This document shows, one piece after another, positions 3,925 to 57,495 of a stretch of 64,000 nt of DNA. The position numbers and the translations under genes are program-made. How positions within the stretch are numbered: position 1 is the first letter of the stretch; each line of letters starts with the position of its first letter. This stretch comes from Stappia sp. 28M-7 (GTDB lineage Bacteria; Pseudomonadota; Alphaproteobacteria; Rhizobiales; Stappiaceae), in assembly GCF_014252955.1 (NCBI RefSeq), contig NZ_JACMIA010000001.1, forward strand, positions 496,001 through 560,000. The letters are read 5' to 3'. The notes below the pieces were generated by a model. It made no database searches. It worked only from the letters and a program-made list of their open reading frames with translations, and was not told where the DNA came from.

Positions 3925-4239
3925 TCAGGCCTTTTCGGCCAGCACCGTCTCGAAACCCTCGAATTCCGGATGGCCGAGATACAGCGGCTTGTTGTCGCCC
4001 GCGCCCTTGTGGGCATCGCGGAAGGCCTGGCTCTTGGTCCAGGCAACGAAGGCATCCTTGTCCCGCCAGATCGTGTGCGAGGCATAGAGCGTATGGTCCT
4101 CGCGGTCCGGTCCCTTCAGCAGGTGGAACTCGACGAAGCCGTCCATCGTGCCCAGATGCCGGTCGCGGTTGCGCCACACCTCCTCGAAGGCATCCTCGTT
4201 GCCGGACTTCACGCGAAAGCGGTTCATAGCAATGTACAT
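3925..4239 (-). CDS. HmuQ/BhuQ-like haem-degrading monooxygenase (ABM domain)
   Basis: A 104-aa protein with the antibiotic-biosynthesis-monooxygenase fold of IsdG/HmuQ-type haem oxygenases. It opens [13 protein letters not shown] and ends [11 protein letters not shown]; the His of the GHPEFEG segment corresponds to the haem-ligand position in HmuQ-type enzymes as I recall them. Its likely role is opening haem to release iron in the cytoplasm. Its ATG overlaps the stop of the upstream DUF2325 gene by one base (TGATG), so the two are translationally coupled. hemP is divergent across the same promoter region, which supports a haem-iron role. Haem cleavage itself is inferred from family and context. 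Confidence 0.85.
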
Positions 4240-5567
4240 CAGGCGGTTTCTCCCTCTTCTGACACTGGCCCCTGCAGGGCAAACTGTGCCGCCGACCGCT
4301 CGCCGACAAGGTCCTGCAGGGCCTTGCGGAACGCGGTCTGGCCTGTGCTGCGCAGCGGCACGAAAGGCTTGTTGAGCTTCTGGCAGATCTTCTTGGCCCG
4401 CAGGCAGGCGTCATGGCTGACGCAGTTGACCGGGCAGAAGACGCAGTCGACGGACGGCAACAGGTGGTCGAGGCGCTGCGGTGCGTCCTCCACCCCGCCG
4501 TCGTGGTGGACGAATGTGGTGTTGAAGGCCTCGGCAATGCCGCGCAGCCGGTCGCGGTGGCCGTGCATGCCGCCGACATAAAGGATCGCCTTGGGCCGGG
4601 CCGTCGCCTCGCCCTGTCCTGGGAGCGTGCCGACCGCAGAGCCGACGACGGCGAAAGGGGCCGGGCTTGCGGCGAGGCCCGCCATCGGCCGCGCCTGCCG
4701 TGGCATGAGCTGGGGCGCGGGGCGCCGGGTCTCGTCGTCGATCTCGCGCAGCCGCGCTTCCGCCTGGCGTGCGCGCACCCGTGCCGATTGCAGGGCACGT
4801 CCGGCCTTGTCGAGCCGGCGGCGCAGGGAGGCTGCGTCCGGTGCCGTCTCAGCCGTCTCCGGCTGGCGCGCCTCGTCCGCCGCCCGTCCGGCCTTCAGCT
4901 TGGCCAGCGCCGCGCGCAGCTCGATCAGTTCCCGGTCGCGCTGGGCCAATGCCTCGCGCAGCCCGCTTTCCACGCGCCGTGCCCGGTCCTCGGCCTCCTG
5001 CAGCTGGTCGCGCAGGGTTGCGGCCTCCTCGTTCTTCTGGCGGAACGAGGCTCCGGCCAGATGCGACCACATGTGTACCTCGCCGAAGATGCGCGCTCGC
5101 AAGGCGCCCGGCACGTGCTGGTGCGTCATGAACGCCCAATAGGCGGGGCCGACCTGACCCCGGTCGCACATGTCGCGCCACAGGGCTTCCAGCTCCGCCG
5201 CCGTGCGCGCCCGGCCGACCCGGCGCAGCGCGCCCTCGAAGCGGCCGTCGAGCAGTTTCTGAAAGGCGCGGGAGAAGGCGCAATCGGTGGTCGACAGGCG
5301 CACGAAATGGCCGTGCACGTCGTAGTCGGGCGTGTCGGGGGAAACGTCGATGCCGGTCTTTTTTGCGGTCCGGCGCAGGTCGGCGACGCTGGCGCAGGTG
5401 CCGACGATGGAACAGTGGACGCTGTCGGCCTGCTCCCACAGCGCGATGCGCTTGCGTGCGGCCTGGGCATCGCTCCCGATCTCCTCGCAGGCGAGCGGGG
5501 CGCGTCCCGAATGCGCGGCGACCGCGGTCTCGATCGCCTTTCGCAGCTTGTCATCCCTGGCGCACAT
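4239..5567 (-). CDS. DUF2325 domain protein in haem locus
   Basis: About 442 aa from the ATG at 5567, which has GGGG 9 nt upstream; the longer open frame lacks comparable support. Three regions are visible. Residues ~1-190 are helical with many His/Cys ([21 protein letters not shown]). Residues ~190-300 are a Glu/Arg/Ala-rich coiled coil. The C-terminal ~100 residues are the DUF2325 domain ([32 protein letters not shown]). It is the first gene of a unit with the HmuQ-like enzyme and is divergent from hemP. The family has no firmly known biochemical role. The His/Cys-rich N-terminal domain suggests haem or metal handling, which is inference from context. Confidence 0.8.
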
Positions 5568-5758
5568 GGAGCCGTGCCCCTTCCTGAAACAGGTTGAAAA
5601 CGCTTGGTCACGATTCGGCTGGTCAAGAGCGTGGCTTGCTGTCCGTCGAGGGAGTGGACGGGTAGCTGGCTGGCGCTTGGATCTCCGTCTGCCGTCTCCG
5701 GGCACAGCGAGAGGCGAAACGGACATTGCCTTTCGTATAAAACATGAGTATTTCAGTC

Positions 5759-5803
5759 AAGAATATTCTTGCGAACGGTTCGCAAGTTTAGAGCTATTCC
5801 AAA
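5759..5803. promoter_or_regulatory. Stacked palindromes including an Irr-box-like site between hemP and the DUF2325 unit
   Basis: Three adjoining symmetric elements occupy 45 bp. AAGAATATTCTT (5759-5770) is a perfect 12-bp palindrome. CTTGCGAACGGTTCGCAAG (5768-5786) is a perfect 9-bp inverted repeat around one base. TTTAGAGCTATTCCAAA (5787-5803) resembles the iron control element recognised by Irr (consensus close to TTTAGAA-N3-TTCTAAA). The site sits in the divergent promoter region, so iron control of both units is a reasonable inference. The binding proteins are not shown by the sequence. Confidence 0.6.
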
Positions 5804-5875
5804 CCACGGACGGCTGAACCGGAGTTTCCGGCCATTCTCGTCCAGGGCCCAAGCGATCGAAGGAGCAAGTCGATC

Positions 5876-6106
5876 ATGTCCCAGTCTGCGAACCCCGCCT
5901 CTCAGGCCCAGGCCGCCGCCTGCCGGCGGCCGCGCACCCAACAGCGCACCCTGACCCTGCCGAAAACGGCGAAAGTCTCGCAGGAGCCGCTGGAACTGGA
6001 CAGCTCCGCCCTGTTCCAGGGTGCCCGCGAGGTCCATATCCGCCACAAGGACATGGTCTACCGGCTGTCGATCACCCGCTTCGAAAAGCTGCTCCTGACC
6101 AAATAG
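5876..6106 (+). CDS. hemP: Haemin uptake protein HemP
   Basis: A 76-aa protein whose last ~40 residues carry the HemP signature: LDSSALFQGAREVHIRHKD followed by YRLSITRFEKLLLTK, ending in lysine as is typical. HemP proteins are small cytoplasmic factors linked to haem uptake and, in some bacteria, to activating haem-transporter expression. The N-terminal ~35 residues are low-complexity and less conserved. GGAG lies 10 nt before the ATG. It is preceded by the candidate Irr box and divergent from the DUF2325-HmuQ unit. No haem transporter genes follow it here. Confidence 0.9.
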   Translation: MSQSANPASQAQAAACRRPRTQQRTLTLPKTAKVSQEPLELDSSALFQGAREVHIRHKDMVYRLSITRFEKLLLTK

Positions 6107-57261: not shown

Positions 57262-57495
57262 GTGATCGTCTGTTCCTGCAATGTCCTGACGGACAAGGAG
57301 TTGCGCAAGGCCGCGCGCGAGCTGCAATCGGGTCCCGACCGCGTGGTCGTGACGCCCGGCGCAGTGTTCCGTGCGCTCGGCAAGCGCCCGCGTTGCGGCA
57401 GCTGTTTCAGCACCGTCATACCGATCATTCACGAGGAAGCACCGGCGGACAAGGGCACGCCGCCGGCAGCGGGGGAGAACCGCGATGAAGGGTGA
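57262..57495 (+). CDS. bfd: Bacterioferritin-associated ferredoxin
   Basis: 77 aa from a GTG. The [2Fe-2S] cysteines are CSC near the N-terminus (VCSCNVLTD) and CGSC later (RPRCGSCFS). Bfd binds bacterioferritin and reduces its stored ferric iron for release. The C-terminus is a Pro/Glu tail. The gene overlaps bfr by 11 bp, so the pair is co-translated. Iron control is expected. Confidence 0.93.

Follow-up and report, generated by a model that had tools for sequence, protein, structure and literature searches.

The DUF2325 gene of Stappia sp. 28M-7 is located between a haem-degradation gene and hemP. The window, which is the whole 64-kb stretch of DNA analysed here, encodes a 442-aa DUF2325 protein on the minus strand that is composed of an N-terminal helical domain (N-domain), a coiled coil and a C-terminal DUF2325 domain (Table 1). 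The Pfam model PF10087 covers residues 328-419 with 79.2 bits against a gathering cut-off of 33.6. The open frame reaches upstream to 5726, and the Met-Cys at 5567 is common to the Stappia loci aligned. A preliminary description of this locus had claimed a one-base overlap with hmuQ, and this is correct: the DUF2325 stop codon (4241-4239) and the HmuQ ATG have base 4239 in common (TGATG). HmuQ matches the NF053649 equivalog model at 171.4 bits (cut-off 130) and possesses N6, W67 and H77, which presumably stand at the expected positions of the IsdG catalytic residues. The hemP product matches PF10636 at 49.2 bits (gathering cut-off 25). The description of a DUF2325 gene that faces hemP is also borne out. 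No HmuQ model matched the DUF2325 protein, which is an extra gene within the operon. The next genes, mtnA and pheS, are ordinary.

Table 1. Features of the DUF2325-hmuQ-hemP locus, in window positions
Feature	Position	Strand	Basis
DUF2325 gene, 442 aa: N-terminal His/Cys helical domain, coiled coil and C-terminal DUF2325 domain	4239..5567	-	
Coding part of the N-terminal domain, residues 36-178: H51 C52 G56 T57 C58, H85, W130, H149, H165 M166 S168 H169	5034..5462	-	alignment, predicted fold
Long-helix (coiled-coil) region, residues 154-281	4725..5108	-	predicted model; coiled-coil Protein Data Bank profile matches by name
DUF2325 domain, residues 328-419: H355 D356 G G, C378 P379, C382, H385, C388, C395	4311..4586	-	PF10087, conservation
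hmuQ, predicted IsdG-type haem-degrading protein	3925..4239	-	NF053649; overlaps DUF2325 stop
Putative promoter/operator motif (plus strand TATAAAACATGAGTATTTCAGTCAAG), -35-like TTGACT and -10-like element towards DUF2325	5736..5761	-	promoter by eye; 13/13 loci
RirA-type IRO box TGA-N9-TCA within the promoter	5745..5759	.	13/13 loci; definition PMC6386902
Irr-like box TTTAGAGCTATTCCAAA, hemP side	5787..5803	+	2 mismatches; 8/13 Stappia
hemP	5876..6106	+	PF10636

The intergenic region contains a conserved putative promoter. When 13 DUF2325-hemP intergenic regions are aligned, a single block is kept in all of them, TATAAAA..TGA-N9-TCAAG. Towards DUF2325, this block can be read by eye as a -35/-10 pair (TTGACT...TTTTATA). 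The TGA-N9-TCA element is the IRO box bound by RirA, as defined in PMC6386902. The exact element occurs in 13/13 Stappia DUF2325 promoter regions, with a second copy in 4. At one mismatch or fewer, the promoter pattern has three sites in the window genome, and the reversed-pattern control has none. The first site lies before DUF2325-hmuQ. The second lies between hmuS (PF05171, 276.7 bits) and a gene for a TonB-dependent receptor with plug and barrel domains, and is oriented towards the receptor. Because hmuS adjoins it, this is probably a haem receptor. The third (L203, G000:C1:3212051-3212076) is near a methyltransferase gene and a hypothetical gene, without a known iron role. Among 13 further Stappia genomes, the DUF2325 promoter site is present in all 12 that bear the gene, and the receptor site in six (G001, G002, G003, G004, G006 and G012), flanked in each by HmuS and the receptor; with the window genome this makes seven. 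A second site at one mismatch or fewer was not found in the other seven of the 13, and the reversed control pattern matched once in two of these. Since the promoter carries a RirA-type operator and a copy of the motif stands before the TonB receptor beside hmuS, the DUF2325 gene looks like a member of a haem-iron regulon.

The regulators are in part recognizable. The Irr-like box of the preliminary description is present on the hemP side, two mismatches from TTTAGAANNNTTCTAAA, which we take to be the Irr/ICE box consensus and against which it was scored. It is the sole site at three mismatches or fewer in the window, where 0.05 are expected. The box is kept at two mismatches in only 8/13 Stappia regions (the best match in the other five has 5 or 6), compared with 13/13 for the RirA-type operator. 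Irr is present in the window genome at 173.7 bits (cut-off 150), together with a RirA-like Rrf2 protein whose 192.8 bits fall 0.2 bits short of the cut-off of 193. A different protein, the top Rrf2 match of the genome, was rejected as RirA, since it does equally well as NsrR (131.0 and 130.1 bits) and overlaps a frame that looks by eye like a globin. In Rhodobacter, the iron-uptake genes that go up under iron limitation include hemP (PMC3413700). Between the DUF2325 promoter and the Irr-like box, two overlapping perfect palindromes were seen by eye, 5758-5771 (CAAGAATATTCTTG) and 5768-5786 (CTTGCGAACGGTTCGCAAG). L096 and L098 retain part of the latter, whereas it is missing from L093, L094, L095, L097 and L099. 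Together, 5758-5786 could be the operator of another regulator.

DUF2325 is present in 13/14 Stappia genomes searched, the exception (G001) being 89% complete, and was not found in 11 genomes of other genera of the same family. In an order-wide sample of 397 genomes, PF10087 occurs in 45, HmuQ in 239 and hemP in 143. Presence barely correlates, with HmuQ in 31/45 DUF2325-positive vs 208/352 negative genomes, and co-occurrence by presence and absence was dropped as uninformative. HmuQ lies within 4 kb of DUF2325 in 13/45 loci of this sample and directly downstream on the same strand in 11/45, from four families; in one of the 11 (L086) the DUF2325 frame is a fragment of 50 aa. Both HmuQ and hemP lie near DUF2325 in 8 of the 45. 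Outside the order sample, HmuQ is downstream of DUF2325 in L117, L121 and L145, and in the gammaproteobacterial loci L148 and L154 hemP is ~1 kb upstream of DUF2325. One Stappia genome has a second HmuQ copy away from DUF2325 (G008:C1:2108863-2109159).

One reading along the lines of the preliminary description, which saw a haem- or metal-handling partner, is that the protein binds haem or donates electrons and serves HmuQ alone. The overlapping genes and the four families with HmuQ directly downstream are consistent with such a partner, but in the Stappia genomes G009 and G013 DUF2325 faces hemP and a HmuQ match was not found anywhere in the genome. These two genomes speak against dedication to HmuQ. 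HmuQ was likewise not found near the short-form DUF2325 genes of L066 and L070 (family f24) or near L057.

The wider family was collected from 144 loci (L046-L189), which gave 132 long open frames with a DUF2325 domain. The long form is defined here as an N-domain with C-x3-G-T-C, H85 and HMxSH, followed by DUF2325, and the Stappia protein has this composition. Removal of frames >85% identical to a kept one left 94 non-redundant rows; 12 short forms were excluded. The N-domain is found in 132/132 long frames at E 0.001 or better, and C-x3-G-T-C is present throughout, with the last Cys replaced by Ser in two. Alpha-, Beta- and Gammaproteobacteria supplied the rows, along with a few further named lineages, among them a Methylomirabilis bin and a contig whose label, Mycobacterium, may be wrong. 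The N-domain occurs in 9 of 398 phylum genomes, so the family is sporadic. In this phylum sample, DUF2325 accompanies 10/10 N-domain matches, nine in the same frame and one in the next open frame. In that one (L266:760-2001), the separate frames are either a split gene or a sequencing error. In another long-form gene (L049:4711-7274), a transposase gene (HTH_38 and rve domains) apparently interrupts the coding sequence.

Several His and Cys residues are invariant in the long form. C52, H85, W130, H165, H169, H355 and H385 are found in 94/94 rows, at a mean column identity of 30%, and C58 (93/94), C395 (92/94) and C382 (90/94) are nearly invariant. H51 and H149 are each found in 79/94. A peptide-pattern scan, with patterns including FG[ED]VHM[LMW]S and [CF]P[VI][DNS]C[VI][SN]HxA, supplied 56 of the 94 rows, and because these patterns contain H165, C382 and H385, those residues were partly selected for. 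In the 38 rows outside the scan, C52, H85, W130, H165, H169, H355, H385 and C395 are present in 38/38, C58 in 37 and C382 in 35. Among the residues named in the preliminary description, C52, C58, H149, H165 and H169 are conserved, but the second His of MTHQH is not. Homologues without the His/Cys positions had been named as evidence against its reading. All 94 long forms keep C52, H85, H165 and H169, but the haem-linked short forms (f24 and Sinorhizobium meliloti) lack the N-domain. Eight of the 12 short frames belong to family f24 and one to S. meliloti, and the N-domain is absent throughout these nine loci. The remaining three are L049 (the split gene, with the N-domain in its own frame), L086, which is a fragment, and L109, a form from a nif cluster.

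The conserved residues are retained in long-form relatives beside molybdenum, nickel and ferric-iron genes, and this counts against a haem-specific role. All 11 molybdenum-linked rows keep C52, C58, H85, H165 and H169, which also weakens the case for a HmuQ partner. The Cys-Pro at 378-379, present in 34/36 haem/iron rows, would suit that partner, but P379 is invariant in alignment A2, so the pair need not be a haem motif. A haem-binding or electron-donating protein dedicated to HmuQ is considered quite unlikely. C378 and C388 are both Cys in 32/36 haem/iron rows, 0/11 molybdenum rows, 2/3 nickel rows and 26/44 others, and both are replaced in 11/11 molybdenum rows. As a statistical claim this signature was dropped, with only 3 independent pairs on the tree.

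The genes around the family repeatedly handle metals. Of 29 gene models run over L046-L189, 17 were used as metal markers; the models were seeded from the window, from neighbours named by Pfam or record annotation and from three unnamed recurrent neighbours. The haem contexts are HmuQ, hemP and hmuS. The iron contexts are imelysin, a di-haem oxidoreductase, a BFD-like domain, an SBP_bac_6 protein read as fbpA and FecCD-type uptake. Nickel contexts comprise NikR, DUF4198 and CbiM/CbiQ, and molybdenum contexts modABC, DUF2478, wHTH genes, NifQ and glp. A haem, iron, nickel or molybdenum marker lies within 4 kb in 50/94 rows and in 0/40 control regions, which were 9.3 kb each and were placed at round-number positions across 23 genomes of the order that have DUF2325. 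In the first count the controls were limited to whole genes and a stricter E-value scale. Under matched rules the controls stay at 0/40, with the scale loosened to the level of the rows or below, and the rows give 49/94 with whole genes only. Rows from loci that gave no seed (L110-L189) have a marker in 23/56, or 22/56 with whole genes only. The Fisher values of 7e-11 (94 rows) and 4e-7 (56 no-seed rows) overstate the evidence because the family's own loci seeded the models, all loci went into their retraining, and the rows are related. In the phylum sample, with loci of ~3 kb, a wHTH (ModE-like) gene is present in 3/9 matches outside the window genome, one of them also with NifQ; L263, among these three, is the same locus as L085.

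A quick tree of the long-form rows, with SH-aLRT support only and a weak root, places all 11 molybdenum rows in one 20-row clade (SH-aLRT 95) that has no haem, iron or nickel rows. By our own count, haem-labelled rows fall in nine places and nickel in two. At least 11 context changes are needed to account for the 50 labelled rows; in 200 label shuffles the mean was 24.7 and the minimum 19. Context is thus passed on within clades, yet it has been swapped repeatedly.

These counts bear on another explanation, in which the DUF2325 gene is a co-regulated passenger that shares an iron-responsive promoter and acts in general oxidative-stress repair without a direct metal ligand. The relative in L104 adjoins msrB, and 44/94 rows are without a metal marker within 4 kb, as a passenger might be. 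This is nevertheless very improbable, as several His/Cys residues are fully invariant in so divergent an alignment and none of the control regions has a marker.

Three unnamed gene clusters recur at these loci. Cluster c20 (~180 aa) is found near DUF2325 in mostly iron loci (L046, L047, L049, L051, L053, L067, L068, L128, L131, L132, L136 and L137); its L046 member has no Pfam match and its L053 member no NCBIfam match. Cluster c22, Cys-rich and ~170-180 aa, is upstream of DUF2325 in L059-L060, L065 and L071-L078 and precedes it in the Pleomorphomonas nickel loci; the L071 member has no Pfam match. Cluster c30, mostly 70-90 aa, comes directly after short-form DUF2325, and before HmuQ where that is present (L057, L058, L061, L063, L066, L070 and L106); the L058 member has no Pfam match.

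The predicted structure agrees with the helical N-terminal domain and coiled coil of the preliminary description. The full-length model (87 rows) has a mean pLDDT of 84.1 and a pTM of 0.50. Residues 41-170 are at pLDDT 94-98, long helices run through 154-281, and an alternating strand-helix C-domain occupies 327-431. Modelled alone, the N-domain has eight helices, with pLDDT 93.0 and pTM 0.87. A sequence search with the full 442-aa protein for a solved relative gave one match, at E 0.45. Among the 60 matches listed of 149, the family profile against the Protein Data Bank matches mostly coiled coils by name, and the N-domain profile finds nothing below E 0.12 among solved structures. In the fold search with the full model, the best E is 0.009 and none is under 0.001. 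For the N-domain alone, Foldseek gave a best E of 2.1, and a second structural comparison gave a best Z of 3.7, with 0/344 chains at Z >= 5. The N-domain is a confidently predicted helical fold without a clear Protein Data Bank match; this is a statement about the search, and novelty of the fold does not follow from it.

Structural matches of the C-domain, none better than E 0.009, are led by Rossmann-like and receiver-like folds. A further explanation is a metal or redox sensor or adaptor, whose His/Cys sites would read a common signal (iron, an Fe-S cluster or thiol state) and which would adjust the neighbouring uptake system without carrying its metal. The invariant residues do not vary with what the neighbours handle (haem, iron, nickel or molybdenum), as would fit a single constant ligand. 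In Campylobacter jejuni, Cj1384, a 104-aa protein with a DUF2325 domain, is encoded near katA and was induced 352-fold by damaging light (PMC9426514). The likeness to receiver domains, however, is that of a general Rossmann-like fold, and Pfam finds no DNA-binding domain in the DUF2325 protein. Such a sensor is considered unlikely.

The DUF2325 gene is tied to haem-iron assimilation by its position, by the shared promoter motif and by the habit of its family. In this respect the preliminary description was right that it is not an unrelated neighbour: the promoter motif recurs at the TonB receptor beside hmuS, the gene is upstream of HmuQ in several families, and the His/Cys residues are nearly invariant. 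A haem-specific, HmuQ-dedicated role is supported no better than a general role in metal handling. Judged from sequence, the Stappia protein is probably (a probability of about 0.55) a metal-handling accessory of haem-iron assimilation, from a three-part family that is plugged into different metal-uptake loci. Gene order, the shared motif, the invariant residues and the repeated metal context were computed directly. The steps that we infer include metal binding, dimerisation, a direction of transfer, a response to iron and contact with HmuQ. The protein would be made at low iron, from a promoter of the same kind as that of the TonB receptor, and would dimerise through its coiled coil. A transition metal would be bound at the invariant His/Cys residues, and in Stappia this may be iron or haem itself. 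The protein could then receive, buffer or pass on the metal brought in by the neighbouring system; in Stappia, that metal would be iron released from haem by HmuQ and HmuS.

A broader and more tentative proposal concerns all long-form DUF2325 proteins. These may be metal-assimilation accessories with a new metal-binding helical fold, a module reused beside haem-degradation, ferric-iron, nickel and molybdenum/nitrogenase loci. The C-terminal Cys set would differ between the molybdenum and the haem/iron branches, and the Stappia gene would be the haem version. If so, an unstudied domain family gains a testable role as a shared accessory of transition-metal uptake in many Pseudomonadota, and one protein occurs in variants at haem, iron, nickel and molybdenum loci. 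Comparison of these variants would let the fate of a metal just after uptake be asked. The Stappia haem regulon would also gain a candidate gene, and the residues to mutate are named above. In the open-licence literature on DUF2325, PF10087 and Cj1384, to which the search was limited, a description of this pattern was not found in the text available.

Known systems share parts of this arrangement. Cj1384 has the DUF2325 domain in common with the Stappia protein, but is too short for an N-domain and coiled coil; it is compared here by description, not sequence. It has 7 Cys and adjoins katA and cj1386, a haem-trafficking gene (PMC9426514). Among the HmuQ/IsdG enzymes (NF053649, PF03992), the Stappia downstream gene product is a full-scoring member. 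The S. meliloti pSymB haem locus (L106) contains haem ABC transporter genes, a hemin-degrading factor and hemP. On the divergent side are tonB, DUF2325, the gene of a small protein and a monooxygenase gene whose product matches the HmuQ model. Unlike in Stappia, hemP is separated from DUF2325 by a hypothetical gene and tonB, and neither N-domain nor coiled coil is present in the DUF2325 protein (137 aa as annotated). The molybdenum loci of Methylorubrum extorquens pCMU01 (modABC, glp and a wHTH gene) and Caballeronia sp. Lep1P3 (NifQ and a molybdenum-dependent oxidoreductase) encode the three-part protein with the invariant His/Cys residues as in Stappia, but differ from it, like all the molybdenum long forms, at C378 and C388.

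DUF2325 is also reported as a possible secondary cargo of encapsulins (PMC6934571); in Ensifer adhaerens the expression of a DUF2325 gene is described (PMC6637203), and a filamentous phage has a DUF2325 protein (PMC10534721). Elsewhere in the window, the BFD-like marker model matches a frame at 57262-57495 (E 2.5e-17), possibly a bacterioferritin-associated ferredoxin.
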